Virus record (IMG/VR): IMGVR_UViG_3300027896_000128
Span: 1 to 34,211 of that record
Length of the DNA: 34,211 nucleotides
Source: a virus
Reading direction: 5' to 3' (one strand)
Positions 6,848 to 30,856 of the stretch are shown here, piece by piece; the first letter of the stretch is position 1; every line of letters starts with the position of its first letter. The notes beneath the pieces were generated by a model that was given only the letters and a program-made list of their open reading frames with translations, was not told where the DNA came from and ran no database searches. The translations under genes and the position numbers were made by a program.

Positions 6848-7260
6848 GCCAGTCCTTCCTCCAGCGCCCCACGCTGACGCTCCCGACCTGCACGGCCGGG
6901 CAGCCGCACGAATGGCGTGTCGCCTCCTGGGTCGACTTCGAGGTCTCCCCAGAGGCCGATCCGGAGAATCCCAAGCCTGAGTCCGTGACCGGCCGTTCGG
7001 CGGCTGGCTTCTTCTGCTCCCGCTGCCTCGCCCAGGTCGACGCCTCCGTGCTCTACGCCGAGCGGGCTGCCGAAGACGAGTCGACTGCGCCCGTCGGAGA
7101 GATCACCCCCAGAAACGCACTCTCGCTCCTGCACGAGATGGTCAACGAGGCCGCACAGACCGAGGTCGGCGAGTTCGGGAGCATGGCGGCGGAGGAGGCC
7201 GAACGGCGGCGGGCAGCGCTCGAGTGGGCCATCGCGCAGATACCCAAGACCGCACCCTGA
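6844..7260 (+). CDS. Hypothetical protein with a CxxC pair
   Basis: 138 aa starting at GTG 6844, overlapping the recombinase stop (GTGA), with GGGAGG upstream. The N-terminal half is beta-rich and holds FFCSRCLAQVD, a possible half of a zinc site; Cys in LTLPTCTAGQPHEW could complete it. The C-terminal half is an amphipathic helix pair rich in Glu and Ala. Not recognised. It is the last gene before the large terminase, and its stop lies inside the promoter-like element for terL. Confidence 0.55.
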   Translation: MSQSFLQRPTLTLPTCTAGQPHEWRVASWVDFEVSPEADPENPKPESVTGRSAAGFFCSRCLAQVDASVLYAERAAEDESTAPVGEITPRNALSLLHEMVNEAAQTEVGEFGSMAAEEAERRRAALEWAIAQIPKTAP

Positions 7261-7286
7261 ACCACTGAAGCTCGCCGCCCCACCAT
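7259..7286 (+). promoter_or_regulatory. Weak copy of the GAACGC-N16 late promoter, before terL
   Basis: GAACCA (7259-7264), exactly 16 bases, then CACCAT (7281-7286), six bases before ATG 7293. It matches the spacing of the stronger copies, though the second box is poor. No Shine-Dalgarno sequence precedes terL. Confidence 0.35.
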
Positions 7287-7292
7287 GGGGCC

Positions 7293-8882
7293 ATGGCAGC
7301 GCCGAAGGGTCCCCCTCAGCCTCCCGAGGACGACCTCAACCGCAAGGCCGCACAAGCCTACCGCGAGGCTCTCAAGCTCCGCGCCGCGGCCGCCCGCACC
7401 GACCCCTGCATGTTCGCGCAGCACGTCATGCGCGACGAGGACTCGGGGGCGGAGGTCAAGCTCGCGCCCATGCATCGGCTGTGGCTGGAGGCGGCGGAGA
7501 AGTACAAGCGCCTGCTGATCTTCGCGAGCCCTGGAGGGGGCAAGTCGGCGCTGTTGTCGGTCGTCTACTCGGTCTTCTGCCTCGGTCGCAACCCCAACGA
7601 GCGCATCGTCATCCTCTCGGCTGCGGAGAAGCAGGCGAAGCGGATCATCCGCGGGATCAAGCAGTACATCGAGGGCAGCCCCGCGCTGCGCGAGGTCGTC
7701 GACGACCGGACGTTCCATCGGCTCGAGCCGGGGGACCAGTGGGACCAGACGGCGATCACGGTCGAGCGCAGCATCTCCTCTCGTGACCCCTCGGTCCAGG
7801 TGTTCGGGAAAGGCGGCGCCATCCAGGGCGCGCGGCCGGACCGCATCATCATCGACGACCTCCTGACCCGCGTGAACTCGAACACGCCCGAGATGCGCGA
7901 CGAGATGGAGGGCTGGTTCAACGCGCTGATCATGAGCCGCGTTGGGCCCAAGACCCGTCTGGTCGGCGTCGGCAACGTGATCCAGAGTGACGACCTGTTC
8001 CATCGCTGGGTGCGGCGCGGGGGGTGGCACGTCATCCGCTCGCCCCTCCTCGACGCCCGAGGACGGCTCACGTGGCCGGAGAAGTTCTCGATGGAGGCGC
8101 TCGAGGAGAAGAAGGTCGAGCTCGGCCCCATCGAGTTCAAGCGCCAGATCCTGTGCGAGGACACCGGCGAGTCCGCTGCCTACTTCGAGCCGGAGATGTT
8201 CGACGGCTGCCTGAAGCGCGGGAACGGCGTCGACCTCTGGCGCCGGCTGGAGTCGCTCCCACGAGACAGCTTCACGGTGACCGGCGTGGACCTGGCACAG
8301 ACGCAGGGCCGCTTCTCGGACCGCACGGTCCTGTTCACGATTCTCGTCGAGCCAGACGGAACCCGCCGCTTGCTCATGATCGAGTCCGGAAAGTGGAACG
8401 GGACCGAGATCATTCACAAGATCGTCGACACCCACGTGCGCTACAAGAGCATCGTGGTGGTCGAGGAGAACTCGGCCCAGCTCTTCATCGACTGCTGCGG
8501 CAAGATCGTGCCCGACATCCCGATCATCCCGCACTCGACACAGGGCTCCAATAAGTCGCATCAGTTCTTCGGCATCGAAGGCATGGCCCACGAGTTCCGA
8601 AGCAACCGCTGGATCATCCCCAACCGCGATGGCGTGGTGGCGGAGACGGTGGCCTCCTGGCTCCAGGGGTTCCTCGACTACCAGCCGCTGACGCACACGA
8701 GCGACTTCGTGATGGCCTCCTGGGTGGCTCGAGAGTACGCGCGGCAACAGGGGGTTCGCATGGGAGGGGCCGCCGTCACCGTGCGCGCGATCGGAGCCGG
8801 CGCGGCCCGGACCACGGCCGAGGACCTCGTGCACCCATTCGACCGGCCTCCCGAGGGGCGGATGCCGCCGTCGATGCTCTAG
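7293..8882 (+). CDS. terL: Terminase large subunit
   Basis: 529 aa, normal length for the family. The N-terminal ATPase has a Walker A loop ASPGGGKS (78-85), a Walker B strand RIIIDDL (184-190, with Asp-Asp in place of the common Asp-Glu) and a coupling region near GVGN (225-228). The C-terminal RNase H-like nuclease shows its three acidic sites: Asp333 in TGVDLAQT, Glu391/392 in VVVEEN, and Asp471 in HTSDFVMASW. The protein docks at the portal, pumps DNA into the prohead and cuts the concatemer. It is separated from the portal gene by a 6.7-kb glycan cassette, which is unusual. The start lacks a Shine-Dalgarno sequence and lies six bases past a promoter-like box, so a leaderless mRNA is possible. 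Confidence 0.95.
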   Translation: MAAPKGPPQPPEDDLNRKAAQAYREALKLRAAAARTDPCMFAQHVMRDEDSGAEVKLAPMHRLWLEAAEKYKRLLIFASPGGGKSALLSVVYSVFCLGRNPNERIVILSAAEKQAKRIIRGIKQYIEGSPALREVVDDRTFHRLEPGDQWDQTAITVERSISSRDPSVQVFGKGGAIQGARPDRIIIDDLLTRVNSNTPEMRDEMEGWFNALIMSRVGPKTRLVGVGNVIQSDDLFHRWVRRGGWHVIRSPLLDARGRLTWPEKFSMEALEEKKVELGPIEFKRQILCEDTGESAAYFEPEMFDGCLKRGNGVDLWRRLESLPRDSFTVTGVDLAQTQGRFSDRTVLFTILVEPDGTRRLLMIESGKWNGTEIIHKIVDTHVRYKSIVVVEENSAQLFIDCCGKIVPDIPIIPHSTQGSNKSHQFFGIEGMAHEFRSNRWIIPNRDGVVAETVASWLQGFLDYQPLTHTSDFVMASWVAREYARQQGVRMGGAAVTVRAIGAGAARTTAEDLVHPFDRPPEGRMPPSML

Positions 8883-8885
8883 GGC

Positions 8886-8897
8886 GAAGCGAACGCG
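8886..8897 (+). repeat. 12-bp direct repeat, left copy flanking the glycan cassette
   Basis: GAAGCGAACGCG, four bases after the terL stop; identical to 15528-15539. It contains the -35-like GAACGC of the promoter at 8891. Confidence 0.6.
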
Positions 8898-8918
8898 CGG
8901 GACAGCCCGTCATATCAC
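8891..8918 (+). promoter_or_regulatory. Late-promoter motif before the glycan cassette
   Basis: GAACGC (8891-8896), 16 bases, TATCAC (8913-8918), then seven bases to ATG 8926. Same layout as the copies before the portal, connector and tape measure genes. No ribosome-binding site, so translation is probably leaderless. Confidence 0.55.
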
Positions 8919-8925
8919 GGTAGGC

Positions 8926-9696
8926 ATGCCGTCTGCGCCGGACGTCAGCCCGCCGACCCTCGCCATCGTCTTCGGCACGTACCAGAGGCTGCCCCTGCTG
9001 CAGCGCGCGGTCGAGTCGTTCCGGATCGCATGTGGCTCGCTGTCGCGCGTGTTCCTCATCGCCGATGGGGGTTCTACGGATGGCAGCCGCGCGTGGATGG
9101 CGGACCAACCCGACGTGGAGATTCTCGAGGGCGGACTCGACGGAGCCGTGCGCGCATTCAACATCGGCTACGCGCGAGCCGTCGACATCGGCCCTGAGGC
9201 GGTCGTCACGCAGAACGACGACAACGTCGCTCAAGCGCCCCCGTCCATCTTCGAGCGCGCGGTCGAGATCCTCAGAGCCGAGCCAGCCGTCGGAGGCGTC
9301 GCGTTCGAGATGGACACCCGCCGCGTTGGGTGGGTCTGCGAGGAGTGGGCCGGACTGCCCTACGGCAACACCAACTGCACGCGGCTCGAGGTCGGCATGG
9401 CCATCGCGCGTGCGCAGGGAGATCCGACGGGAAAGGCGTGGTGGGATCGCAGGTTCAAGACGTACGCCTCGGACACCGTGTTCGGACTCTGGATGAACCG
9501 CCTTGGCTGGGAGATGCGCCGCGGCGTCGGACTACGCGTTCACGACTCGGGTCACCCCGACGAGATGAAGAAGCGCAACGTCCAGGACTATTGCGCGAAC
9601 GGGACGGCCGACCTGTTCACGGCGCAGTTCGGGCGGCCGGACCAGTGCGCCTACAGCCGCGAGGATGCCATGCGCTTCGGCGGGCGCGTCCGATGA
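8926..9696 (+). CDS. Family 2 glycosyltransferase (GT-A fold)
   Basis: 256 aa. The nucleotide-sugar fold begins with LAIVFGTYQRLPLLQRAVES (12-31), followed by ADGGSTDGS (46-54), the classic GT2 loop, and a QNDDN metal site (96-100) corresponding to DxD. The acceptor half contains KAWWDRRFKTYASDTVFGLWM. The enzyme would transfer a sugar from a nucleotide donor to a glycan or protein in the cytoplasm; donor and acceptor are unknown. It is the first gene of a nine-gene cassette with overlapping starts, and the following methyltransferase begins inside its stop (ATGA). A late-promoter motif ends seven bases before the start. Confidence 0.85.
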   Translation: MPSAPDVSPPTLAIVFGTYQRLPLLQRAVESFRIACGSLSRVFLIADGGSTDGSRAWMADQPDVEILEGGLDGAVRAFNIGYARAVDIGPEAVVTQNDDNVAQAPPSIFERAVEILRAEPAVGGVAFEMDTRRVGWVCEEWAGLPYGNTNCTRLEVGMAIARAQGDPTGKAWWDRRFKTYASDTVFGLWMNRLGWEMRRGVGLRVHDSGHPDEMKKRNVQDYCANGTADLFTAQFGRPDQCAYSREDAMRFGGRVR

Positions 9697-10223
9697 CCAC
9701 GCGGCTGCATCTCGGCTGCGGCGATCGCATCCTACCTGGCTGGGAGAACGTCGACGGCCGCGCGGGTCCAGGGGTCAATCGCGTCGTCCAGATCCACGGC
9801 GGCCTCTGGGTTCTCGATACCGCCGCGTACTCGCAGGTGTACTCCAGCCACGTGATCGAGCACGTCTTCCCGGACAAGCTCCCCGCAGTCCTGCTCGACT
9901 TGCATCGCATCCTAGTCCCCGGCGGGAAGCTGACGCTGGCGACGATCTCGCTCGAGGGCATCTTCCACAACGCCTTCAAGCGGAGCTACTCGCGCGAGGC
10001 CGTCAACGCCTACCTCTACGGGGACGCCAAGTCCAGCGACAGCCCCCTGCAGGCGCACCGGCAGGTATTCACCGAGGAGTGGCTCACCGAGTACCTCAAG
10101 GACGCCGGATTCCCGGCGGTGCGTCCATGGGCGCTCACCGACTACCCAGAGATCGCGGCCCTGGAGGACTGCGCGAGTTCGTCCTACCACGTGACGCTCT
10201 ACCTGGAGGCCGTGAAGTGCTGA
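9693..10223 (+). CDS. SAM-dependent methyltransferase (class I)
   Basis: 176 aa from ATG 9693, which overlaps the glycosyltransferase stop. RLHLGCGDRILPGWENVD is the SAM-binding motif I seen in Methyltransf_11-type enzymes of polysaccharide clusters; SHVIEHV and LDLHRILVPGGKLTLATI are the later core motifs. The usual substrate in such clusters is a sugar or glycan end, methylated at a hydroxyl, but this cannot be read from the sequence. The next gene starts seven bases before its stop. Confidence 0.82.
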   Translation: MTTRLHLGCGDRILPGWENVDGRAGPGVNRVVQIHGGLWVLDTAAYSQVYSSHVIEHVFPDKLPAVLLDLHRILVPGGKLTLATISLEGIFHNAFKRSYSREAVNAYLYGDAKSSDSPLQAHRQVFTEEWLTEYLKDAGFPAVRPWALTDYPEIAALEDCASSSYHVTLYLEAVKC

Positions 10224-10849
10224 ACAACATCTGGGAATTTCTCGTACCCCGCTTCAAGGACGCGGCGCCGCGGGTCGTCTTCGAGATCGGAGCGCACATC
10301 GGCACCGACACCGTGACCCTCGCCGCGCTCCCCGGAGCCACGGTGCACGCGTTCGAGCCGGATCCGAGAAACAACCTACCGACGCTGCCCAACGTCGTCT
10401 TCAACCGCGCCGCGATCGGGGCGCGGGACGGCGAGGCCGAGTTCACGCCAAGCGCGAAGCGCGGGGAGTGGGACTGGACCTGCTCCGGCTCGTTGCGTCG
10501 CCCCAAGGAGCACCTGCGGTCCTGGCCCACCGTCACCTTCGGCGACCCCATCCGAGTCCAGGTGGTGACGCTCGACACCTACTGCCGTGAGCACGGGATC
10601 GACGTCATTGACTTCGTGTGGGCCGACGTGCAGGGGGCCGAGGCGGACATGATCCGCGGCGGGCTCGAGACGCTCAAGCGCACGCGCTACCTCTACACCG
10701 AGTTCTCGTGGAAGGAACTCTACGAGGGGCAGGTGAACCTCGACGGGATCCTGGCGCTGCTTCCGGGCTGGCGCGTGGTGCAGGTGTTCCCGAGCCCCGA
10801 GGACTACGGCGACGTGCTCCTCGAGAACACGGAGATGGTCGGCCAGTGA
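10217..10849 (+). CDS. FkbM-family methyltransferase
   Basis: 210 aa from GTG 10217. VVFEIGAHIGTDTVTLAALPGATVHAFEPDP is the FkbM SAM-binding region (about 19-49). TLDTYCREHGIDVIDFVWADVQGAE is the highly characteristic second block with its D-x-Q-G-x-E signature, where most relatives have D-x-E-G. FkbM enzymes O-methylate polyketides and sugars, and are often found in glycan clusters. Overlaps both neighbours, so it is co-translated with them. Sugar O-methylation is inferred from context. Confidence 0.85.
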   Translation: MLNNIWEFLVPRFKDAAPRVVFEIGAHIGTDTVTLAALPGATVHAFEPDPRNNLPTLPNVVFNRAAIGARDGEAEFTPSAKRGEWDWTCSGSLRRPKEHLRSWPTVTFGDPIRVQVVTLDTYCREHGIDVIDFVWADVQGAEADMIRGGLETLKRTRYLYTEFSWKELYEGQVNLDGILALLPGWRVVQVFPSPEDYGDVLLENTEMVGQ

Positions 10850-11559
10850 GCCTCGTCGCCCTGACCTCGCTGTCTCCGTCGCCGGACGCAGGCGAGCGGC
10901 AACGATTCTGCCTGAAGTCGTGGCGTCGAGCTGGGCTGCAAGTGGTGTCGCTCAACCACCCGTTGGAATCCGAGGCGGTCAGCGGCTACGGCGCCCACGT
11001 CCTCCAGGTGGAGAACACGGGGTTCGCGCAGTACGGCCGCCACGTGGTGCCGCTCAACCAGTTCATCAACCTGATCGCCAGCGTGAACGAGCCGGCGCTG
11101 ATCATCAACGCCGACAACGAGCTGCGCGTGACCGCGGAGCAGGTGGCGCACCTGTCCGAACTGGCCCAGGTCGGCGTGCCGATGTTCGCCAAGGTGCACC
11201 ACGACGCCGACGGGGGAAATGCCTGCGTGGAGCCGGCCGGATTCGACGCGTTCCTGCTCTCGCCGCGGCACGCGCATCTCTACGCCGAGTCCTTCCTGAG
11301 CCTGGGCCAGCCGTGGTGGGACTACTGGCTCCCGTGGATGATCCGAGAGTCCGGAGATCCGCTGTTCCTCCCACATGAGCCCGTCGCCTTCCACCTGCGC
11401 CACCCTGGAGGCTGGGACTGGCGGACCTGGAATATGGGAGCAGTGGAGTTGGCACGGCTCACCGGACTCGACGCTGGAGCCGACGTCCACGCGCGCAGCC
11501 GGCTCTCGTCTGCGGTCTACGACGCCATCGCGAAGCACTCGACGCGGGTGCACCTGTGA
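10846..11559 (+). CDS. Glycosyltransferase-like protein (GT-A type)
   Basis: 237 aa from GTG 10846, overlapping the previous stop (GTGA). It starts SLVALTSLSPS, then RQRFCLKSWRRAGLQVVSLN, a pattern of nucleotide-diphospho-sugar transferases. ALIINADNELRV resembles a GT-A strand ending in a DxD-like Asp pair. WWDYWLPWMI and a His-rich loop (FHLRHPGGWDW) form the acceptor side. Similar proteins occur in phage and bacterial glycan clusters, but I cannot place it in a numbered family. Role: probably transfer of a sugar in the same pathway. Confidence 0.6.
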   Translation: MSLVALTSLSPSPDAGERQRFCLKSWRRAGLQVVSLNHPLESEAVSGYGAHVLQVENTGFAQYGRHVVPLNQFINLIASVNEPALIINADNELRVTAEQVAHLSELAQVGVPMFAKVHHDADGGNACVEPAGFDAFLLSPRHAHLYAESFLSLGQPWWDYWLPWMIRESGDPLFLPHEPVAFHLRHPGGWDWRTWNMGAVELARLTGLDAGADVHARSRLSSAVYDAIAKHSTRVHL

Positions 11560-12158
11560 ACCCCATCGTGCACGTCCACATGCTGATCACCACCGCGTGC
11601 AATCTCCAGTGTCCGGACTGCTGCCAACAGATGCCCCGCAAGTGGCCCGGGGAGCACGAGTCGTGGGCGAGTCTCGAACGCGCGGCTCGGTACCTACAGG
11701 GGTATCCACTCTGCGTCTGCGGCGGAGAGCCGACGGCACACCCGGACTTCGCACGCATCGCGCGGGAGTTCCGGGAGCTGTTTCGCGCGCCGTACATGGA
11801 GGTGGCCACCAATGGCTATCAGGTGGTCGAGCACGGCACCGACGTGATGAGGTGCTTCGATCTGATACGTGTCACGGACTACCCCAACGCCATCACGCAG
11901 GCGGCGATTGCGTGGTGCAGGCAGGAGGTCCCGGACCTGCTACGGGTCGAGGGCTTTCGGCACATCGCCCTCAAGTTCCACGGCAACGAGCACCCGTGTG
12001 GACGTGAGTACTTCCCGATCTACTCGCAGGGGCGCGTCTTCCCGTGCTGTGTCGCCACCGGATTCCCCGACGCCGAGAGCACCGCGCTCAGTTCTGGATG
12101 GGAGACGCGTCTTCCCAATCTCAAGCTACCCTGCGTTGACTGCGTGTTCGGCCAATGA
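11556..12158 (+). CDS. Radical SAM protein
   Basis: 200 aa from GTG 11556. ACNLQCPDC provides the CxxxCxxC cluster site (Cys15, Cys19, Cys22) for the [4Fe-4S] that cleaves SAM, and CGGEPTAHPDF is the following GGE motif. The C-terminus has two more Cys pairs (VFPCCVATG; LPCVDC) that may hold an auxiliary cluster, as in shortened SPASM-type enzymes. At 200 aa it is small; a complete partial-barrel usually needs about 220 or more. Such enzymes perform oxidation, dehydration, epimerisation or methylation by radicals. Its place among glycosyltransferases suggests sugar or protein modification; the substrate is unknown. Strict overlap with both neighbours. Confidence 0.8.
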   Translation: MNPIVHVHMLITTACNLQCPDCCQQMPRKWPGEHESWASLERAARYLQGYPLCVCGGEPTAHPDFARIAREFRELFRAPYMEVATNGYQVVEHGTDVMRCFDLIRVTDYPNAITQAAIAWCRQEVPDLLRVEGFRHIALKFHGNEHPCGREYFPIYSQGRVFPCCVATGFPDAESTALSSGWETRLPNLKLPCVDCVFGQ

Positions 12159-13210
12159 GGCGCGCTGCTTGTTCTGACTGGCCCCGCGTACTATGTCCCG
12201 AGGTGGGCTGCTATCCCCCGGCAGCGCCCAAGCGCCATACGGAGCGAGTCCTGCATCTCGCCATGTGGCCGCATCGTCCACACGCTCAACTCTCCCTCGA
12301 CACCATCGCCAGCGACTACCGCATGGTGTACTGGCCCGGACGCCCCCGAGAGACGGTCATCGCCGAGATACTCCAGGAGGCGCGCGACATTCGCCCCTCG
12401 CTGGTCTTCATCCAGGTGCAGGGACCGGGAGTTCTGGAGCCGCACGACATCGAGAGGCTCCGCCCACTCTGTGATCCGTCGTGCGTGATCTGCAATTGGG
12501 ACGGCGATCAGCACTACGAGCCGCGTGATCCGCAGAGGCGGTGGTTTGTGGACCTCGGGCGCGTGTGCGACGCCGGCCTCGTCGTCAACACCGAGCACCC
12601 GGCGGTCTACGCCGATCTCGGAGTGCAACATCCGGGCTTCTTCGAGATCGCTGTCGACCCTCCCGTCTTCCACCCGACGGCCCCAGCCATCAACGTGCCT
12701 CCTGTCGTGCTGCTCGCGAACGCGACCCACCAAGTCCACGCCACGCGCCGCGGATATGTCGGCTCCCTCGATGCCCGCCTTGGTCCCGAGCGCTTCGGCG
12801 TCTACGGCTCCGGGTGGGAAGGGCTCGCCACCGGGCATAACCCGCTCGCCCTCACGCAGGAGTCGGCCGTCTACTCGGCCGCGCGCGCGGCGCTCTCGAT
12901 CTCGGCCCGCAATGACCTCCCGCGCTACACGAGCGACCGCCTGTTCCGGCTTCTCGCCAGCGGCGGCGTGCCGGTCGTCGAGAGGTTCCCCGACTGCGAG
13001 GGACTGGGGCTGATCGATGGACGCAATTGCATCCTGTGGTCCGGCGAGGCTGGTCTACACGCTGCTCTCGAAGGTGCCCTCGCCATGCAACCCGGAGAGA
13101 CGCAGGCCATGCGTGACGCTGCTTCCGATCTTGGGCACGACCACCTTTGGACGCAGCGAGTTCTTGAACTCCTGGCCCTCGTGGACGCGGTGCGCGAGGC
13201 CCGTCCGTGA
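12155..13210 (+). CDS. CgeB-like glycosyltransferase (GT-B fold)
   Basis: 351 aa from ATG 12155 (ATGA overlap). The first 30 residues look non-conserved. The fold seems to start at RVLHLAMWPHR, so GTG 12203 or ATG 12263 are other possible starts. The N-terminal half holds IRPSLVFIQVQGPG and VICNWDGDQHYEP. The C-terminal half contains YTSDRLFRLLASGGVPVVERF, the donor-binding signature of Glyco_trans_1_2/CgeB proteins, followed by DGRNCILW. CgeB from Bacillus modifies spore-surface glycans; relatives in phages and bacteria act on surface polysaccharides or protein glycans. Confidence 0.82.
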   Translation: MRRAACSDWPRVLCPEVGCYPPAAPKRHTERVLHLAMWPHRPHAQLSLDTIASDYRMVYWPGRPRETVIAEILQEARDIRPSLVFIQVQGPGVLEPHDIERLRPLCDPSCVICNWDGDQHYEPRDPQRRWFVDLGRVCDAGLVVNTEHPAVYADLGVQHPGFFEIAVDPPVFHPTAPAINVPPVVLLANATHQVHATRRGYVGSLDARLGPERFGVYGSGWEGLATGHNPLALTQESAVYSAARAALSISARNDLPRYTSDRLFRLLASGGVPVVERFPDCEGLGLIDGRNCILWSGEAGLHAALEGALAMQPGETQAMRDAASDLGHDHLWTQRVLELLALVDAVREARP

Positions 13211-13713
13211 AGACTGACCTCGACCGCTGGCTCCGCGTGGCGGGAGAAAAACCGCACTGGGACGAGCGCAATCGGATGATCGCGGCGCTCATCACTCCCG
13301 GTTCCGCGGTGGTGGACGTGGGCGCCGGCGCGATGACGCTGCGCGATCATGTGCACTGCGGCGTGTACGTTCCGGTCGACTGCGTTCCTACGTCTCCGGA
13401 GGTCGTGCTCGCCGACTTCAACGAGGGCCTCTACCCCAATCTCTCCGGGCAGTTCGACTACGCCGTGCTCTCTGGGCTTCTCGAGCACATCGACGACCCC
13501 GAGGCCGCGCTGCGGGTCTGCTCGACGTGGGCCACGTACACGATCTTCTCCTACTGCCTGGCGGAGACGGTCCCCGCCGAGTTCCGGGTCGGCTTCCGCA
13601 ACCACCTCTCGGCGCTCGACCTGCTGCAGATGCTTGCGCGGCTGAAGCTGACTGCGTGGATGCCGGAGTCGTGGGCTGGGCAAGCGATCCTCGTTGCGAC
13701 GAGGGTGCCGTGA
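13207..13713 (+). CDS. SAM-dependent methyltransferase (class I)
   Basis: 168 aa from GTG 13207 (overlap GTGA). ALITPGSAVVDVGAGAMTL is motif I with the GxG loop, FDYAVLSGLLEHIDDPEAAL is motif IV/post-II as in Methyltransf_11/23 proteins, and the C-terminal strand ends QAILVATRVP. Close in design to methyltransferases of O-antigen and capsule loci. Third methyltransferase of the cassette; the modified atom is not predictable. Confidence 0.78.
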   Translation: MKTDLDRWLRVAGEKPHWDERNRMIAALITPGSAVVDVGAGAMTLRDHVHCGVYVPVDCVPTSPEVVLADFNEGLYPNLSGQFDYAVLSGLLEHIDDPEAALRVCSTWATYTIFSYCLAETVPAEFRVGFRNHLSALDLLQMLARLKLTAWMPESWAGQAILVATRVP

Positions 13714-14645
13714 TCCGCCGCGTCGCCATTCTCGGTGAGATGGGTACCGGCAACCTCGGAGACGACTACGGCTTTCTTCTACTCCGGGACGAACTACTCG
13801 CGGCGTTCTCCGAACTCGACGTGCTGGTCAACGTCCTTCCGCTCTCGGGACAAGCCGGGCTCGACATGAACACCTGGCACGCGGTGGTCACCGGATGCGG
13901 AACACTGCTCGACGAGGTGCGCGGGGCCTACGTTCACCGGCTGCTCGTGGCCGACTGTCCCATAGCGATCCTTGGGACAGGGACTGCCGATTCGCGCTAC
14001 GCCACTCCGACACCCGAGGGCCGCCGCGCGTTGCGGAACGTGCTCAAGGTCTCCTCCTACACGTGGCGCCGCGGGGAGGAGGGTCCCGATACTGGCTGGC
14101 TCGCTGGCTGGCGGCGGCTGGACCAGGCTGTCGACTCTGGAGCGTGCGGCATCAACGAAGGTCCCGCCGCCCACAACCTAGCGCCGCTCGATCCCGAGCG
14201 CATCATCGACGTGCGCTCCAGGCTGCACCGCCCGAGCCGCCTCGTGGCCGCATTCGTCCACGACCTCAATCACCTCACGCCGCTTCTAATGCGCGGAGAG
14301 CCGGACGCCTTCATGGTGGACGGGACCAGGCGCTCGTTCGCGGCGTTGTCCTCGCTCTCGACCATCCTCTGCCGGCGCATCCACCTCGGGGTGATGGCGG
14401 CGTGCTGTGGAGTGCATCCGGTTCTGCTCGACTACAGCGCCAAGGTCCGCAAGGTCTTCGAGGGGACCTCCGTCGCCCACACCATCCTCCCCCCGGAGTC
14501 CACGAACACCGACATCGCGCGCACTCTCGACGGCAACCTCCCATCCCCTGATCGGACGACGGTGGAAGAAGCTCAAACAGCGTGCCGCGATCACGTGCGC
14601 CGTGCCGCGTCCGCCATCGCCGCGGAGTGGGGAATCGCACCCTGA
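13710..14645 (+). CDS. Polysaccharide pyruvyl transferase family protein
   Basis: 311 aa from GTG 13710 (GTGA overlap). It begins VAILGEMGTGNLGDDYGFLLL, the N-terminal G-x-x-N-x-G-D signature of WcaK/CsaB-type pyruvyl transferases. It continues with a glycine-rich VTGCGTLLDEV and, near residue 205, the C-terminal block VDGTRRSFAALSSLSTILC…HLGVMAACCGVHP. Family members use phosphoenolpyruvate to add a ketal pyruvate to a hexose, giving the glycan a negative charge. The C-terminal R-x-H part is a weaker match, so another GT-B-like role is possible. It ends 33 bases before the last cassette gene, which has its own promoter motif. Confidence 0.75.
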   Translation: MIRRVAILGEMGTGNLGDDYGFLLLRDELLAAFSELDVLVNVLPLSGQAGLDMNTWHAVVTGCGTLLDEVRGAYVHRLLVADCPIAILGTGTADSRYATPTPEGRRALRNVLKVSSYTWRRGEEGPDTGWLAGWRRLDQAVDSGACGINEGPAAHNLAPLDPERIIDVRSRLHRPSRLVAAFVHDLNHLTPLLMRGEPDAFMVDGTRRSFAALSSLSTILCRRIHLGVMAACCGVHPVLLDYSAKVRKVFEGTSVAHTILPPESTNTDIARTLDGNLPSPDRTTVEEAQTACRDHVRRAASAIAAEWGIAP

Positions 14646-14671
14646 ACCGCAGCGCCTCCGCAGCCTATCTC
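14644..14671 (+). promoter_or_regulatory. Late-promoter motif inside the glycan cassette
   Basis: GAACCG (14644-14649), 16 bases, TATCTC (14666-14671), then seven bases to GTG 14679. Fits the layout of the other copies; boxes are imperfect. Confidence 0.45.
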
Positions 14672-14678
14672 TCGATGG

Positions 14679-15557
14679 GTGGCGTTCCTCACCGTCTCCT
14701 ACATCACGAACCGCAGCACTCACCCCCTCGTCGAGAAGCAACGCGGTCAGTACGAATTGCTGGCTGAGTCTCTGCGCGCCCAGGTGTTCACCAACTACGA
14801 GTTGATCATCGTCGACCGAGACAACGATCTGCCGAGGCCGGAGCTGGCGTGGATCGGGGACCGCGTGCGCTTCCTGCGACCGCACACTTCGCCGTGGCCA
14901 CTCGGGACGTTTGCGCCGTCCATCGCCCGCAACACCGCGCTCGCCGCTGCGCGCGGTGACATCGTGTTCGGCCTCGACGACTGCGTGAGCTTCGACTCCC
15001 ACCTGCTCAAGCACGTCGTGGACTATGTGGCTCGGGGGCTGTATCTGGCTCCCACCTACGGGGCTCCGGGCGACCGTCAGAGCGGGCCACCGCATCCTCA
15101 GGCGCTGTGCGGCGGCATCGTGGCCTACCCGCGGGCGCGCGCCATCGAGCTCGGGGGGTGGGAGGAGCGGTTCGCGGCTTGCTGCGCGTACGAAGACTTT
15201 GAGTTCAGCGAGCGGTTGGGGCGCAACGGCGTCCGCTTCATCTCCGACCCCGCGGCCCACGTCACGCTGCACTCGCACATCTCCCGCGAGAAGGGCGGCA
15301 ACTGGCGCTGCCACGAGGCCATCTGGCATCTGCTGCAGGGCCAGGCTCGCGCGAACGTGCCGTGGACGCCGGAGCAGCTCTCCTGCTTCGAGGCGCGGCG
15401 CTGTCCGCTGGAGAACGCTGGACACAGCGGCTGCCCAACCGGAGAGTGCAAGCTGCCGCGGCCGACCCCTGAGACCTTGGCCCTCATGCGCGACTATGAG
15501 TGCCGGAACCGAGCGCTCTTCCCAGGTGAAGCGAACGCGGACACGTCCCCGCTGTAG
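14679..15557 (+). CDS. Family 2 glycosyltransferase
   Basis: 292 aa from GTG 14679. FLTVSYITNRSTHPLVEKQ leads a GT2 nucleotide-sugar domain, with ELIIVDRDND and the metal site GLDDC (Asp100, Asp101). GGIVAYPRA and GGWEERFAACCAYEDFEFSERL form the catalytic-base and C-terminal motif typical of GT2 enzymes (E-D-x-E/D). A His/Cys-rich tail follows (HSHISREKGGNW; CPLENAGHSGC), possibly metal-binding. It lacks a Shine-Dalgarno sequence and begins seven bases after a promoter-like box. Its last codons contain the right-hand copy of the 12-bp repeat and the promoter of the portal gene, as if the gene end and the portal promoter were joined by recombination. Confidence 0.85.
   Translation: MAFLTVSYITNRSTHPLVEKQRGQYELLAESLRAQVFTNYELIIVDRDNDLPRPELAWIGDRVRFLRPHTSPWPLGTFAPSIARNTALAAARGDIVFGLDDCVSFDSHLLKHVVDYVARGLYLAPTYGAPGDRQSGPPHPQALCGGIVAYPRARAIELGGWEERFAACCAYEDFEFSERLGRNGVRFISDPAAHVTLHSHISREKGGNWRCHEAIWHLLQGQARANVPWTPEQLSCFEARRCPLENAGHSGCPTGECKLPRPTPETLALMRDYECRNRALFPGEANADTSPL
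15528..15539 (+). repeat. 12-bp direct repeat, right copy flanking the glycan cassette
   Basis: GAAGCGAACGCG inside the final codons of the second GT2 gene; identical to 8886-8897 after terL. Contains the GAACGC box of the portal promoter. Confidence 0.6.
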
Positions 15558-15560
15558 CCG
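15533..15560 (+). promoter_or_regulatory. Late-promoter motif before the portal gene
   Basis: GAACGC (15533-15538), 16 bases, TAGCCG (15555-15560), then six bases to ATG 15567. No Shine-Dalgarno sequence; predicts a leaderless portal mRNA. Confidence 0.6.
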
Positions 15561-19012: not shown

Positions 19013-19022
19013 AACCTGAACT

Positions 19023-19050
19023 GAACGCAGTTCCCCGCGCCTTCGATCCT
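19023..19050 (+). promoter_or_regulatory. Late-promoter motif before the first scaffold-like gene
   Basis: GAACGC (19023-19028), 16 bases, GATCCT (19045-19050). Here the next ATG (19097) is 46 bases further on and has its own GAGGCAAGAG ribosome-binding site, so this copy would give a leadered mRNA. CCTGAACTGAACGC is shared with the copy at 20360. Confidence 0.6.
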
Positions 19051-19096: not shown

Positions 19097-19549
19097 ATGC
19101 CCATCGACAGCAAGAAGCTCGACGCGCTGCAGGCCGCCATCAAGAACGCCCTGAACCCGCCGGTTCCGGTGGCGATGACGCCGGAGGAGTTCGTGAAGTA
19201 CGTCGGTGAGCAGGTCGGCAAGCTCGCGAAGGATGCGCCCGAGATCGCGCAGAAGCGCGCCGTGGCCCTCGACGCCGCGTTCGTCGCGATGAAGACCGCG
19301 GCCGAGGCCAAGCTCGAGAAGGGTGACGTGCTCGTGTTCGAGGAGCCGACCGCCCCCGCGCCGGTCGCGCCCCCCGCGGTGTCCCCGCCCACGGCCGCGG
19401 CCCCCACGCCGGCCGCCCCCGTGACGCCCGCGGCGCCCGCGGCGCCCGCGGCGCCCGCCCCCGACGTGACCAAGGGAGCGGGCTTCGTGTTCCCCGCGGA
19501 CATGGCCGACCCGAAGGCCCGCGAGGCGATCCAGAACTTCGGGAAGTAG
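19097..19549 (+). CDS. Scaffold-like protein with capsid-tag-like C-terminus
   Basis: 150 aa. Residues 1-75 are helical and lysine-rich (TPEEFVKYVGEQVGKLAKDA), residues 80-125 are a Pro/Ala-rich linker with tandem PAA units, and the last 22 residues (FVFPADMADPKAREAIQNFGK) form a separate tag. Nearly the same tag, FVWPADIADPKVREAL, ends the protein at 20401-21303. A helical body, flexible linker and short C-terminal capsid-binding end is how phage scaffolds are built, and the gene lies next to the prohead protease. Scaffold or internal head protein is therefore the best inference; it is small for a scaffold. Confidence 0.55.
   Translation: MPIDSKKLDALQAAIKNALNPPVPVAMTPEEFVKYVGEQVGKLAKDAPEIAQKRAVALDAAFVAMKTAAEAKLEKGDVLVFEEPTAPAPVAPPAVSPPTAAAPTPAAPVTPAAPAAPAAPAPDVTKGAGFVFPADMADPKAREAIQNFGK
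19427..19458 (+). repeat. Tandem 9-bp repeat in coding sequence
   Basis: Three perfect copies of CCCGCGGCG (19427-19453) and a partial fourth, encoding Pro-Ala-Ala units of a linker. Such a repeat can gain or lose units by slippage without breaking the frame. Confidence 0.6.
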
Positions 19550-20348: not shown

Positions 20349-20359
20349 CGACCTGAACT

Positions 20360-20387
20360 GAACGCGCACAGCGGGGCCTTTGATCCT
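20360..20387 (+). promoter_or_regulatory. Late-promoter motif before the second scaffold-like gene
   Basis: GAACGC (20360-20365), 16 bases, GATCCT (20382-20387), 13 bases before ATG 20401. Shares CCTGAACTGAACGC and GATCCTGCG with other copies. Confidence 0.6.
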
Positions 20388-22256: not shown

Positions 22257-22300
22257 TCGCGACCACGGCTGCTGGTACGGGGCCGCTGAGGTAGCACAAC

Positions 22301-22322
22301 AGACGCTACTGCAACGGCGTCT
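22301..22322 (+). other. Short hairpin after the capsid gene
   Basis: AGACGCT (22301-22307) pairs with GGCGTCT (22316-22322), six Watson-Crick pairs and one wobble, loop of eight. No T-tract follows, so a full terminator is doubtful; it may stabilise the 3' end or attenuate transcription. Confidence 0.35.
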
Positions 22323-23237: not shown

Positions 23238-23957
23238 ATGTCCATCTTCGCTCGTCTGAAGCCGCGGGCCCCACGGCAGGGCTTCCCCCTGCTCACGTGC
23301 ACGTACCAGAGCATCAGGTTCGAGGCCGGGGGTCCGGCCGAGCCCGTCACGGGCGCCCAGGCCGCGTTCCTCAGGGCCTACCATGAGGTCGAGTCCGACC
23401 CCACCTCTCCACTGGCCTTCGAGGTCTGGGAGGGCAGCGCTGAGGGACCCGGGGGTCAGGCAGCTCCGTCCGCGGTGCCTCCGGAGCAGACGGCGAAGCT
23501 GAGGGCCTCGAAGCCATCCCCAAGCCCGATCACGAGTTCCGATCTCGCTCCGCCGAAGGCCCTGAAGCTCCCGGTCCCGCCCACGCTCGAGGAGGTGCGC
23601 GCGGCCGGCTATGTCTACCCCGGGGTTGCCGAGAAGATCGTGGCCGAGGAGCAGGCGAAGGCGACCGCGGGCATCCGGCCGTACGGCGACAAGGAGCCCC
23701 CTGGGCTCCCGGAGGAGCCCCCGGTCCGTGAGGAAGAGCAACCCCCGGTGGACACCGAGCAGGCCCCGCAGGCGGCGTCTCAGGACGCGGAGCAGCCGCT
23801 CGACGACACCCCCGACCCCACGGACACGCCGGAGGCCCAGGCTGCGCGCGAGGCTGCTGAGGCCGCGAGTCGCGCGGCCCTCACCGCCGTGCACGGTGAG
23901 GCGCAACCGGAGCCCACGAAGGGACGCTACCGTCGACGGATGGGCGCCCCTACCTGA
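23238..23957 (+). CDS. Pro/Glu-rich hypothetical protein
   Basis: 239 aa from ATG 23238, with CAGGAG upstream. A small folded N-terminus (FPLLTCTYQSIRFEAGG, 16-65) is followed by long Pro/Glu/Ala-rich disorder. In the middle, AGYVYPGVAEKIVAEEQAK resembles the AGFVFP tag of the scaffold-like proteins. The C-terminus is basic (GRYRRRMGAPT). The fold at the start resembles the short head proteins that precede connector genes. Function unknown. The promoter for the next gene overlaps its last codon. Confidence 0.5.
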   Translation: MSIFARLKPRAPRQGFPLLTCTYQSIRFEAGGPAEPVTGAQAAFLRAYHEVESDPTSPLAFEVWEGSAEGPGGQAAPSAVPPEQTAKLRASKPSPSPITSSDLAPPKALKLPVPPTLEEVRAAGYVYPGVAEKIVAEEQAKATAGIRPYGDKEPPGLPEEPPVREEEQPPVDTEQAPQAASQDAEQPLDDTPDPTDTPEAQAAREAAEAASRAALTAVHGEAQPEPTKGRYRRRMGAPT

Positions 23958-23983
23958 ACGCTCCCGAGCGCCAGCCGTAGCCT
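23956..23983 (+). promoter_or_regulatory. Late-promoter motif before the connector gene
   Basis: GAACGC (23956-23961), 16 bases, TAGCCT (23978-23983), six bases to ATG 23990. Best match to a TANNNT -10 box among all copies; no Shine-Dalgarno sequence. Confidence 0.65.
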
Positions 23984-25063: not shown

Positions 25064-25065
25064 CG

Positions 25066-25554
25066 GTGCGCGGGAAACTCCTGCACCCGATGTTGGCCGA
25101 GCTCCACCGGCTCGACACCTCGGCCACGGCCGCTGCCAACGGCTACGACGACGACTTCCGGGAGCCCAGGCGTACCTCCGATGGCTCGTGGAAGGGGCAG
25201 AGCGCGCTCCAGGAGCAGGCTCCGATTCTCGTGCGCTGCCAGGTCGAGATCAACACCTACGGGGCGCTCGTGGCGCTCCTGAGCGGGAACGCCACCGAGA
25301 ACCACGTCGTGCTCTGCTTCCACTTCGCGGACCTCGAGCGCGCCGGCCTCGTGGACGACAGCACGAAGACCGCCGAGATCAAGCTGCACGCTCGACTCAC
25401 GGCCATCTACCGACCGAACGGGACGCTCGAGCAGACCATCAAGGCCCCGGGCCTCTACGCCATCGACGTCCAACCGGCTTCATTCGGACTGGGGTCGAGG
25501 CGAAACCTCCTGCTTGTGACCTTCAAGTGCCGTGATCCGAGCGTCAAGGGGTAG
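25066..25554 (+). CDS. Probable head-closure/neck protein
   Basis: 162 aa from GTG 25066, two bases after the preceding stop. After a helical start the protein is beta-rich: APILVRCQVEINTYGALVAL, NHVVLCFHFADLERAGL, GLYAIDVQPASFGLG. This resembles small beta-barrel head-closure or stopper proteins that follow the adaptor gene in many phages. The identity is inferred from order and fold pattern; no diagnostic motif. Confidence 0.5.
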   Translation: MRGKLLHPMLAELHRLDTSATAAANGYDDDFREPRRTSDGSWKGQSALQEQAPILVRCQVEINTYGALVALLSGNATENHVVLCFHFADLERAGLVDDSTKTAEIKLHARLTAIYRPNGTLEQTIKAPGLYAIDVQPASFGLGSRRNLLLVTFKCRDPSVKG

Positions 25555-25557
25555 GCG

Positions 25558-26388: not shown

Positions 26389-26400
26389 GCTACCCGAACT

Positions 26401-26428
26401 GAACGCACGGGACGGTGCCTCCGATCCT
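26401..26428 (+). promoter_or_regulatory. Late-promoter motif before the tail-terminator gene
   Basis: GAACGC (26401-26406), 16 bases, GATCCT (26423-26428), six bases to ATG 26435. The wider context GAACTGAACGC and GATCCTGCG repeats the copies at 19023 and 20360. Confidence 0.65.
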
Positions 26429-26434
26429 GCGTGC

Positions 26435-27436: not shown

Positions 27437-27714
27437 TGTCGGTGACGCTGCAGCACCGCCTGCGCTCCATGCAGGCCTACAACCTCGACCACGAGCACTA
27501 CTGCAAGGCCCTCGGGCGCTGCGAATGCACGGTCGTCGAGACGCGCGTCTTCGTGCGGACCCCGGCAGCCGGCATGAAGGTGGCCGAGAAGACGGCGCCG
27601 CCAGTGCTGACGCTGCTGGCGCGTGAGAGCCGCGGGGGACTCCCGAACGCCATCCTGACCGCCCCGAGCATCGCCTCGGCCATCAAGCGCGGCGACATCC
27701 GCCGCGTGCCGTAG
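27436..27714 (+). CDS. Small hypothetical protein before the tail sheath
   Basis: 92 aa; the ATG shares a base with the preceding stop. Basic protein with CRC-type residues (ALGRCECTVVETRVFVR) and a helical end with ILTAPSIASAIKRGDI. Position between terminator and sheath is constant in many contractile-tail phages for small unknown proteins. No function assigned. Confidence 0.5.
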   Translation: MSVTLQHRLRSMQAYNLDHEHYCKALGRCECTVVETRVFVRTPAAGMKVAEKTAPPVLTLLARESRGGLPNAILTAPSIASAIKRGDIRRVP

Positions 27715-27729
27715 GAGCAGGAGGAGCAC

Positions 27730-29343
27730 ATGGCTTCCGACCTCAGCAGCGAGATGAAAGTCCGGTTCTCCTCCGGGGGAATCCCGAACATCGCCGCCCG
27801 CAACGCCCACGTCATCGGCATCGCCGGCGTCACCGAGCGCGGGCCCTTCGGCGCGCGCCTGGTCTCGTCGTGGGCGGAGTATCTGAAGACCTACGGCGGG
27901 TTCACGGCCAATGCCGATGTCGCGCTCGCGGTGTGGAACTGCTTCGCCGAGCGCGGCGATGCCAGCCCCGAGCTCTACATCAACCGCATCGTGCACCGGA
28001 ACGGGGACGTCGCCGCGAGCGCGGCCGCCACGGTCATGCTGCGCTCGGGCGGGGTCGGCACGTTCCTGTTCGACACGCTCAAGGTCGACGGCAAGACCCA
28101 CGGCTCCTACGCCAACAGCATCAAGATCCGCGTCGCGGACGCCACCAACGGCGAGGCCGCCTGCTTCGATCTCAAGGTGGAGCTCTCGGGCGTGGTGGTC
28201 GAGCACTGGAAGAACCTCACGATGGACTCGACTGACGCCGTGTCCTACGTCGAGACCGTCATCAACCACGCGACCGCCGGCTCCGACTACATCGCCGTCA
28301 CCGACCAGGACGTGCTGGTCGCGGCGCTGCAGAAGCGTCCGGTGAACGGCCTGTCGGCCTACATGGCCAGCGGCGACGATGGCCTCTCCGGGCTCGTGGA
28401 CCTCGACTACACCGGAAGCAAGACCGCCGGCATCGGCCTCTACGCCTTCGACGCGCTGCAGACGCTGGACATCCTCATCGTCCCCGGCCGCGCGACTACG
28501 ACCGTCCAGAACGCGCTGGTCACCTACTGCGAGACCGACTGGGGCGGCCAGACGCTCGCCATCCTCGATCCCGCGGCCTCGCAGACGGCGGCCCAGATGG
28601 TCACCTACTGGGTCACGACCGCGTCGCTCTACGGCCTGTCGTTCAAGATCGCGATGTACTGGCCGCGGCCGCGCATCACCAACCCCGACCCGGTCACCTT
28701 CGGCACCGGCCTCTCCATCTCGGTCCCCCCGTCGGGGCTGCTGGCCGGACTGTGCGCGCGGGTTGCGGCCGAGTCGCCCAAGGGCAAGTTCACGCAGCCC
28801 GCGGGCATCTCCTGGCCGCTTCGGTCCGTCGTCGGGTTCGAGGGCGAGGACGACGAGCGCAAGCAGCCGCACGCGGTCTGCCAGAAGACCACGCGCAACC
28901 TCGTGTTCCCCAAGCGGATCAACCCGCTGCGCAAGGACAAGGTGGGCCCCTACTACGTCGACGGCGAGCTCACCGCGAAGCGCGGAACCAGCAAGGACTT
29001 CGCGACCGTCGGCGAGCAACTCGGCGCCCAGTACGTGGCGAAGGAGGTCGAGCAGGGCCTCGACATCGTGCGCCACATGGACAACGACGAGGTCACGCGC
29101 GAGCAGGCCCGCCAAGTGGTCGACATGTTCCTGCGGCCGCAGTGCGCGGCCGGCTGCTTCAAGAGCAAGGACCCGGCCACGGCGTACGTGGTCGACTTCG
29201 GCGCCGGGCTCAACACCCCGGACGTCGTCCGGCAGAACAAGCTCAAGGGCTACATCGGGCTCGCGACCAACGACCCGATCCTCTACGGCGACATCGAGAT
29301 CGCCAAGGACACCCGGGCGTACGACGCCTCGGTCGCGCCGTAA
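27730..29343 (+). CDS. Tail sheath protein
   Basis: 537 aa with GGAGGAG upstream. The N-terminus IAARNAHVIGIAGVTERGPFGARLVSSWAEYLKTYGGF is the standard sheath opening: a strand, then the G-x-T-x-x-G-P-x-x-x-P-like turn and the xxFxxxYG motif. DLDYTGSKTAGIGLYAFDAL lies mid-protein. The C-terminal domain (HAVCQKTTRNLVFPKRINPLR; LKGYIGLATNDPILYGDIEI) matches the part that builds the contractile helix in T4 gp18/phage sheath families. This proves a contractile tail. The tube gene follows 21 bases later. Confidence 0.93.
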   Translation: MASDLSSEMKVRFSSGGIPNIAARNAHVIGIAGVTERGPFGARLVSSWAEYLKTYGGFTANADVALAVWNCFAERGDASPELYINRIVHRNGDVAASAAATVMLRSGGVGTFLFDTLKVDGKTHGSYANSIKIRVADATNGEAACFDLKVELSGVVVEHWKNLTMDSTDAVSYVETVINHATAGSDYIAVTDQDVLVAALQKRPVNGLSAYMASGDDGLSGLVDLDYTGSKTAGIGLYAFDALQTLDILIVPGRATTTVQNALVTYCETDWGGQTLAILDPAASQTAAQMVTYWVTTASLYGLSFKIAMYWPRPRITNPDPVTFGTGLSISVPPSGLLAGLCARVAAESPKGKFTQPAGISWPLRSVVGFEGEDDERKQPHAVCQKTTRNLVFPKRINPLRKDKVGPYYVDGELTAKRGTSKDFATVGEQLGAQYVAKEVEQGLDIVRHMDNDEVTREQARQVVDMFLRPQCAAGCFKSKDPATAYVVDFGAGLNTPDVVRQNKLKGYIGLATNDPILYGDIEIAKDTRAYDASVAP

Positions 29344-29364
29344 CCGACGGCGAGGGAGTGAGCC

Positions 29365-29823
29365 ATGGCCATCAACGGAAGTCCCAAGAAGTTCGTCAGC
29401 CCCGCCAAGGCCCGGCTGATCATCCACGGCGTCGGCGTCATCGAGCGGTGGCGGAAGATCAGCGGCCTCGGCGGTACGACCGAGACCGCCGAGTTCTACG
29501 AGGGCGGCAACCCCGATCCGGTGGCGCAGCTCCCCACGGTCAACAAGTGGGAGGACATCAAGATCGAGCGCGGACGCACCATCGACCACTCGGTGCGCGA
29601 CTGGGCCACGCAGTGCCGCAGCGGGCGCTACCGGGCCGAGGACATCGAGAAGGAGGCCACCCTCCAGACGCTCGACCTCAACGGCGACGTCCTGTTCGCG
29701 GACACCTACCACCGCTGCAAGGTCGTCGGCTACAGCGAGTCGGACAAGGAGAGCAAGCCCGGCGACGTCGTGATCGAGACGATCACGATCAAGCACATGG
29801 GCGCCGACCTCACGCAGCGGTAG
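29365..29823 (+). CDS. Tail tube protein (T4 gp19-like)
   Basis: 152 aa with GAGGGAG upstream. Beta-rich with an acidic loop, including WRKISGLGGTTETAEFYEGGNPD, KWEDIKIERGRTIDHSVRDW, and the closing strand VVIETITIKHMGADL, the pattern of T4 gp19/Hcp-like tube proteins. Hexamer rings stack to form the inner tube inside the sheath. A strong terminator follows the gene. Confidence 0.88.
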   Translation: MAINGSPKKFVSPAKARLIIHGVGVIERWRKISGLGGTTETAEFYEGGNPDPVAQLPTVNKWEDIKIERGRTIDHSVRDWATQCRSGRYRAEDIEKEATLQTLDLNGDVLFADTYHRCKVVGYSESDKESKPGDVVIETITIKHMGADLTQR

Positions 29824-29843
29824 CCCTGCGCTGTCGCAATCCG

Positions 29844-29870
29844 CGCCGGCGTCCGTCCAGGGCGTCGGCG
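29844..29870 (+). terminator. Rho-independent terminator after sheath-tube genes
   Basis: Stem of 11 pairs, 29844-29854 with 29860-29870 (two G-T wobbles), a five-base loop, then TTTCT at 29871-29875. It lies 20 bases after the tube stop and would lower transcription of the chaperone genes relative to sheath and tube. Confidence 0.65.
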
Positions 29871-29888
29871 TTTCTGTAGGAGGAGTCG

Positions 29889-30647
29889 ATGCCCAGCGCC
29901 GTCATCGTCTGCCCCTCCGGGCTCGCCGGAGAGATCCGCACCGCCAAGATCGGGGACCTCGAGCAGTTCGCTGAGACCGCGCGCCGCAACTTCGCGCGGG
30001 CGCTGACCGACCTGCTCAACAGTTGCTGGCTCCGCACCGACGACAAGGCCATCTACCCTGAGCCCTTGCACTGGGGGAAGGTACTGGCCGGAGATCGCCT
30101 GTACTCCTGGATCCAGATGTGGATCCTGCGCTCGGGACGGAAGTTGGAGTTCCAGTTCCAGTGTGATGACCAGGGCTGCCGCCAGGTCAACCCAAAGCTC
30201 CAGCAGTGGGAATCCATGCTCGACGCGCTGGTCGTGCAGATGCTGCCGGAGGCCTCGAAGACGACGTTCATGGCCGGCAACCGCTTCGAGACCACCGTGG
30301 ATGGGAAGCGGGTGGCGTTCCGGCTGTTGACCGGGGAACTCGAGGCCGAGGTCGAGGGACGCTCGCGGGGCCGGAAGCGCACGCTCTCGGAGGGGATGGC
30401 CGAGCGGCTCATCGAGGTCGAGGGCGTCGGGACCAAGTTCGAGGCCCTCACCAAATGGGCACACGATCTCGACGACGGCGAAGTGGAGAGGTTCATCGCC
30501 GTCCGCGATGCCGCCGACTGCGGGGTGGAACTCGGCATCGAGGTGCAGTGCGAGTTTTGCAACCGGGTGGTGCCCATCGACATCCCTTTCGCCGAGAATT
30601 GGACGAGGCTGGTGAGGAAGAAGGGTTCGACCTCGCCCGGCCGCTGA
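29889..30647 (+). CDS. Tail assembly chaperone, short form (T4 gp26-like)
   Basis: 252 aa with GGAGGAG before ATG 29889. A helical N-terminus (EQFAETARRNFARALTDLL), a CDDQGC pair near residue 95, and CEFCNRVVPIDIPF near 220 form a likely zinc site, as in the gp26-like/baseplate-hub family of contractile tails. The place directly before the tape measure is that of the G-type tail chaperone. CCCTTTC at 30584-30590 is a perfect X-XXY-YYZ heptamer in this frame; slipping by one base would replace the last 18 residues by 88 from the overlapping frame. The sequence ends KKGSTSPGR when no shift occurs. Confidence 0.7.
   Translation: MPSAVIVCPSGLAGEIRTAKIGDLEQFAETARRNFARALTDLLNSCWLRTDDKAIYPEPLHWGKVLAGDRLYSWIQMWILRSGRKLEFQFQCDDQGCRQVNPKLQQWESMLDALVVQMLPEASKTTFMAGNRFETTVDGKRVAFRLLTGELEAEVEGRSRGRKRTLSEGMAERLIEVEGVGTKFEALTKWAHDLDDGEVERFIAVRDAADCGVELGIEVQCEFCNRVVPIDIPFAENWTRLVRKKGSTSPGR
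30584..30590 (+). promoter_or_regulatory. -1 ribosomal frameshift slippery site CCCTTTC
   Basis: In the chaperone frame the codons are ATC CCT TTC, so the heptamer reads C-CCT-TTC. After a -1 slip Pro and Phe tRNAs re-pair with CCC and TTT. The downstream stretch (CGAGG 30604-30608 with CCTCG 30631-30635) could form a weak stimulating stem. Confidence 0.65.
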
Positions 30648-30856
30648 TCACGCTCCGGGAGATCCGCGACCTCAAGTTCGACCTGCGGGCGCTGCGGCAT
30701 GGCTGCGGTCTGGGCCTATCGTTCGCCGAGATCGATGCCATGGAGTGGGAAGAGGCTCACGACTGGCGCCAGCGGCTGGGTGAGTTCCTGGAGGCGGCGG
30801 GGGTGCTGAAGCGCCCTGAACGCTCCGACGGCGACGGCCTACCCTCGGAGCCATGA
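30590..30856 (+). CDS. C-terminal extension of the chaperone in the -1 frame (DUF6760-like)
   Basis: After the slip the frame encodes 88 residues beginning RRELDEAGEEEGF and containing LREIRDLKFDLRALRHGCGLGLSFAEIDAMEWEEAHDWRQRL. The last part, a short helix with F-A-E-I-D-x-M and W-x-x-R-L, resembles DUF6760-type small proteins that follow gp26-like genes in contractile tails. No ATG or GTG start occurs at its beginning; TTG 30599 or CTG 30644 are the only poor options, which supports frameshifting. The fusion would have 322 aa. The tape-measure promoter lies within its end, and its stop overlaps the tape-measure start (ATGA). Confidence 0.65.
   Translation, partial: RRELDEAGEEEGFDLARPLITLREIRDLKFDLRALRHGCGLGLSFAEIDAMEWEEAHDWRQRLGEFLEAAGVLKRPERSDGDGLPSEP
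30818..30845 (+). promoter_or_regulatory. Late-promoter motif before the tape measure gene
   Basis: GAACGC (30818-30823), 16 bases, TACCCT (30840-30845), seven bases to ATG 30853. Lies inside the end of the chaperone extension. No Shine-Dalgarno sequence. Confidence 0.6.

Follow-up and report, generated by a model that had tools for sequence, protein, structure and literature searches.

Nine gene junctions in a virus record of IMG/VR (IMGVR_UViG_3300027896_000128) carry a two-part element, best written TGAACG-N17-(T/G)AnCCT (equivalent to GAACGC-N16-[TG]AnCCT), which is real and conserved and whose copies probably serve late transcription units as promoters, recognised by a sigma70-family RNA polymerase and placed for leaderless messages at seven genes. 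The stretch analysed, positions 1 to 34,211 of the record and hereafter called the window, is a fragment and not a whole phage genome; its 34.2 kb have a GC content of 68% and encode a contractile-tail module. The copies amount to a sequence-defined set of candidate phage promoters in a group with hardly any isolated close relatives, and sister phages bearing three different -35 boxes allow a junction-by-junction comparison.

Occurrence and placement of the element

Copies are named here by the first G of GAACGC, the hexamer TGAACG beginning one base earlier. All nine copies listed in an earlier note on this DNA were recovered on the sequence at their positions and with the same spacing. Its count of seven clear copies was slightly generous, because only five match exactly (19023, 20360, 23956, 26401, and 30818) and those at 8891 and 15533 join GAACGC to imperfect second boxes, TATCAC and TAGCCG; the copies at 7259 and 14644 are indeed weaker GAACC variants, with CACCAT and TATCTC as second boxes.

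In seven copies the second box ends shortly before a start codon, at 6, 7, 7, 6, 6, 6, and 7 nt from genes 7293, 8926, 14679, 15567, 23990, 26435, and 30853, respectively, and none of these starts has a properly spaced Shine-Dalgarno (SD) sequence, the GGAG of gene 30853 lying just 2 nt from its ATG. AGGAGG/GGAG-type sites, or an overlap with the gene upstream, are found at most of the remaining genes, as the earlier note had also described. The start codons behind copies 19023 and 20360 lie farther off, again in agreement with it, and the gene at 19097 would be leadered, with a weak SD sequence. Strict TAnnnT boxes precede two of the seven leaderless-distance starts (23990 and 30853), near-TA boxes three others (TATCAC, TATCTC, TAGCCG), and GATCCT and CACCAT the remaining two. 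No consistent signal emerged when the first 50 nt of five motif-led genes were folded. Placement of the second box and conserved N-termini together suggest that the seven genes are leaderless.

The exact pattern TGAACG-N17-KAnCCT was observed five times against 0.01 expected, with a maximum of 1 in 100 dinucleotide shuffles. When the gap after GAACGC was varied from 5 to 34, the exact pair occurred five times at 16, once at 31 and at no other distance, and it was absent from the minus strand. The enrichment over shuffled sequence foreseen in the earlier note therefore held for the exact motif and not clearly for versions with one or two mismatches, for which reason start-anchored and ortholog tests replaced relaxed counting. 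A matrix built from the five strong sites only was applied at 33-36 nt upstream of 40 gene starts; it placed the four weak sites within the top 1.2e-4 to 2.8e-4 of positions in the window, and the sole other gene start to pass was 5242, behind a canonical TTGACA promoter. In leave-one-out scoring no position outside the set outscored six of the nine sites, and at most five of 68,362 positions outscored each of the remaining three. Matrix and offsets were picked after the sites of the earlier note were known, so that the ortholog tests form the independent part.

Conservation in related phages

All close relatives are metagenomic contigs, mostly short. The motif is kept at orthologous junctions in two of them: contig L001 (capsid 76% identical) retains it at the orthologs of 20360 (position 856) and 23956 (position 3971, reading TAGCCT-CGGATC-ATG), and L081 (sheath 47% identical) at those of 26401 (position 1732) and 30818 (position 5943, reading TAGGCT-7-ATG). 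On each contig, no position on either strand scores higher than these two orthologous junctions. A third contig, L115 (portal 64%), reads TGAACG-N17-TAACAC-CAGTGC-ATG before the portal gene (6 nt) and gives weaker support, because this copy ranks only second on its contig. Alignments of the 20401, neck and 26435 genes begin at residue 1, which makes their spacing to the start codon trustworthy. Conservation of the motif did not extend to distant relatives (30-40%), where high-scoring hits were mostly scattered and off the orthologous junctions.

Sister clades present other upstream boxes at the same junctions. In contigs L083 and L084 (sheath 71%, gene 26435 58-59%), the 19023 and 20360 junctions carry CACACTTTTGACGGGTTGT and the 26401 junction a closely similar version of it; the L084 copy at the 20360 junction is TTGACG-N17-GAGAGT, and L084 holds two identical 19-mers around the -35. 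In L020 (sheath 55%), the 20360 and 26401 junctions both bear TTGACA-N17-GACACT, with a canonical upstream box. These boxes suggest that promoter positions are constant and that each clade has its own -35 sequence. By eye, the -10 of the window copies at 19023, 20360, and 26401 is GATCCT in each case, and in the sisters several boxes at these junctions also open with GA or AA, whereas TA opens those of the portal, neck and tape-measure copies. Leaderless genes led by TAnnnT and sigma70 late promoters of phages are already known; what is new is that the putative -35 box is specific to a clade and varies among sister phages.

Among 80 distinct relatives (28-36% identical), 24 place TAnnnT 4-9 nt ahead of the start at the gene 26435 junction, and 19 of these lack an SD sequence; control offsets gave 3.0 on average and 9 at most. 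The excess suggests that leaderless-type placement recurs at this junction across the phage group, and the TGAACG box, as a predicted -35 element, is what is special to the clade of the window. No TAnnnT excess was found at the capsid, sheath and 29889 junctions, where SD sequences were present in 89/91, 49/50, and 56/66 relatives. The extended form TGnTAnnnT occurs just upstream of starts in the distant relatives L014, L016, L017, and L003 (in L014, 1.5 times per distance at 5-8 nt vs. 0.11 elsewhere), and just upstream of no gene start in the window. In L014, L016, and L017, TGATAnnnT stands 6-8 nt ahead of many start codons, its TGA possibly serving as stop codon and extended -10 element at once.

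Readings of the element

The elements are read as promoters of the sigma70 family because leaderless genes of high-GC bacteria are recognised by a TANNNT some 12 bp ahead of the start codon (Zheng et al., 2011; PMC3160421). The downstream box would be the -10 element (-12 to -7) and TGAACG a clade-specific -35 element (-35 to -30), separated by a fixed 17-bp spacer. Since the -10 lies 6-7 nt before ATG or GTG at seven genes, transcription there would start on the start codon or no more than one base from it, giving mRNA translated without a leader; genes internal to operons would use SD sites, and at 19023 and 20360 the same promoter would yield a leadered or short-leadered message. We infer from the DNA that transcription takes place, where exactly its 5′ ends lie, that translation is leaderless and which sigma factor is used. 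Late timing is suggested by the genes served. The earlier note had proposed a phage-specific late regulon of structural genes: the putative -35 box is clade-specific, but no dedicated phage sigma factor or activator was found on the 34-kb fragment, and the structural part has to be widened, as the motif also heads the terminase gene and a glycosyltransferase, methyltransferase and radical-SAM cluster. Between the sigma70-type and extracytoplasmic function (ECF)-like factors it had offered, the geometry is sigma70-like, with TTGACG or TTGACA at the same 17-bp spacing in the sisters, and not ECF-like.

Several observations weigh against this reading. With one or two mismatches allowed anywhere, counts of the motif do not clearly exceed those in shuffled sequence (11 vs. 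6.7; 10 vs. 11.7), so that the weak copies rest on position; conservation amounts to five junctions in three short contigs, with the L115 copy at rank 2. TGAACG agrees with TTGACA at just three of six positions, the spacer being 17 in all copies, and three -10 boxes (GATCCT) begin with G. The closest cellular matches, prophages in metagenome-assembled genomes of Myxococcota, reach only about 40% identity in the host search, which leaves any assignment of the host, and with it of the sigma factor, tentative.

A phage late activator, or a co-opted alternative sigma factor, might instead bind the TGAACG region and recruit the polymerase through an ordinary -10, the regulon staying off until the factor is made. 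We consider this possible but doubtful. The box is uniform within the phage, unlike TTGACA, and swapped between sisters at the same junctions, a pattern that favours a trans-acting partner; the left-arm promoter at 5207 has TTGACA instead, spacing is rigid, and the 12-19 bp that some copies have in common around the -35, like the paired 19-mers of L084, exceed the needs of a -35 hexamer. Recent duplication could nevertheless explain these longer shared stretches, the position of the box is precisely the one bound by sigma70 region 4, and the sigma70-like sister boxes with their 17-bp spacing favour plain sigma70; moreover, no activator, sigma factor or relative of MotA or AsiA was recognised among the window proteins searched, the record being a fragment. 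Equally tentative is the proposal that a phage factor reads the late -35 box and has been re-specified between sisters (TGAACG, TTTTGACG, TTGACA), positions and -10 geometry remaining fixed, and thereby switches on late transcription and leaderless translation together.

Signals for processing, termination or packaging, or else mobile repeats, standing at gene junctions by accident would fit copies at gene ends, some of which use the TGA stop (copy 30818 sits within the 3′ end of the preceding gene), and sub-groups sharing longer stretches, as duplicated repeats would. Such explanations are nonetheless very improbable, as conservation is confined to two short boxes a fixed distance apart, with a variable sequence in the 17 nt between them, the element stays 6-7 nt from start codons, sister phages substitute promoter-like TTGACA or TTGACG elements, and the Rfam search returned no family. 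To chance, acting through high-GC stop-codon contexts (CTGAAC) and start-proximal composition, we give practically no credence: relaxed patterns are no commoner than in shuffled sequence and several copies overlap a TGA stop, but exact copies far exceed expectation, held-out weak copies were found at gene starts, and the orthologous junctions being the top matches in two divergent contigs already contradicts it. Promoters read by a sigma70-family holoenzyme thus remain the reading we prefer. With three -35 boxes at the same junctions, it becomes testable whether late control swaps its recognition box and keeps promoter positions, and also whether phages couple late expression to leaderless translation.

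Neighbouring features and known systems

Table 1. Positions of the candidate promoters and main genes in the window.
Feature	Position	Strand	Upstream box	Downstream box	Details
Copy 7259 (weak)	7258..7286	+	TGAACC 7258-7263	CACCAT 7281-7286	6 nt before ATG 7293 (terminase large subunit); overlaps TGA stop of preceding gene
Copy 8891	8890..8918	+	CGAACG 8890-8895	TATCAC 8913-8918	7 nt before ATG 8926 (glycosyltransferase-like, first of sugar/methyltransferase cluster)
Copy 14644 (weak)	14643..14671	+	TGAACC 14643-14648	TATCTC 14666-14671	7 nt before GTG 14679 (glycosyltransferase-like)
Copy 15533	15532..15560	+	CGAACG 15532-15537	TAGCCG 15555-15560	6 nt before ATG 15567 (portal)
Copy 19023	19022..19050	+	TGAACG 19022-19027	GATCCT 19045-19050	46 nt before ATG 19097 (small gene ahead of protease)
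Copy 20360	20359..20387	+	TGAACG 20359-20364	GATCCT 20382-20387	13 nt before ATG 20401
Copy 23956	23955..23983	+	TGAACG 23955-23960	TAGCCT 23978-23983	6 nt before ATG 23990 (head-tail adaptor)
Copy 26401	26400..26428	+	TGAACG 26400-26405	GATCCT 26423-26428	6 nt before ATG 26435
Copy 30818	30817..30845	+	TGAACG 30817-30822	TACCCT 30840-30845	7 nt before ATG 30853 (tape measure)
Left-arm canonical leaderless-type promoter	5207..5235	+	TTGACA 5207-5212	TATCTT 5230-5235	N17; 6 nt before ATG 5242
Left-arm promoter-like site	5889..5918	+	TTGACA 5889-5894	AACACT 5913-5918	N18; 6 nt before ATG 5925
Terminase (large subunit)	start 7293	+
Portal	start 15567	+
Head-morphogenesis gene	ends 19012
Protease	start 19557
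Major capsid	start 21321
Head-tail adaptor	ATG 23990	+
Neck	start 25558
Gene of phrog_16236	ATG 26435	+			two genes ahead of sheath
Sheath	start 27730
Tube	start 29365
Tape measure	ATG 30853	+

The genes and candidate promoters of the window are collected in Table 1. Reference phages gave remote matches or none, with hardly any close match among isolated phages; scans with the terminase and with the tape measure found no relatives, and a tRNA search of the window was negative. Between terminase and portal, at 8926-15557, lies a sugar and methyl cluster served by two candidate promoters of the set, with two glycosyltransferase-2-like genes, an FkbM methyltransferase, a radical SAM, a glycosyltransferase-like and a MetW-like gene, perhaps for modification of the capsid or host surface.

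The left arm encodes an exonuclease-like gene, a serine recombinase and, at 5925, a possible ribbon-helix-helix-like gene (weak Pfam match), whose promoter-like site at 5889 had no significant start-anchored matrix score. A perfect inverted repeat at 5192-5235, CTGTCTATC-N15-GATAGACAG, spans the TTGACA box of the gene 5242 promoter, and TTGACAAnnGATAGAC recurs within 5889-5924, ahead of gene 5925; from their sequence the two look like a shared operator of an autoregulated early or lysogeny switch.

A short GC hairpin separates the capsid gene from the next small gene in the window (22300-22322; stem GACGC..GCGTC), in L001 (about 2513-2533) and in L084 (about 4345-4362; stems GGCGC..GCGCC in both contigs), and an automatic fold of the three sequences gave seven pairs with one two-sided change, L084 being misaligned in it. 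In L115 (6767-6852) and L083 (5083-5173) two otherwise different small open reading frames, nuclease-like by eye, have a common leader composed of a GC hairpin with a conserved loop containing GCGTCAACGC and three two-sided stem changes, followed by GGAGGTCCGACGTG; it had no Rfam match, and the frame is possibly a mobile gene carrying its own structured leader.

Literature searches found little on leaderless late promoters of phages. Like bacterial TA-led leaderless genes, the window genes show a TAnnnT-like -10 about 12 bp before the start, no SD sequence, position at operon heads and high GC; unlike them, they lie in a phage late region, are tied to a conserved upstream box at fixed spacing and include three G-led -10 boxes. 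Promoters of ECF sigma factors have GGAAC at -35 and often CGTC at -10. The GAAC of the upstream box and the strict spacing resemble this class, whereas the full boxes, TGAACG and (T/G)AnnCT, and the TTGAC-type -35 of sisters at the same junctions do not. The late messages of the Thermus phage P23-45 are regarded as leaderless. Middle and late genes of that phage are served by the host sigma-A RNA polymerase through promoters of the extended -10 class (reviewed in PMC7403470). The distant relatives L014 and L016 likewise show extended -10 boxes, in contrast to the window promoters, which keep a -35 box and have no extended -10 at starts. In the sigma appropriation of phage T4 by MotA and AsiA, a phage box replaces the -35 element and the host-type -10 is kept (PMC7403470). 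The T4 middle promoters thus offer a precedent for an activator, with a phage-specific box in place of the -35 beside a host-type -10, and differ from those of the window, whose box occupies the normal -35 position at 17-bp spacing and whose placement is leaderless.

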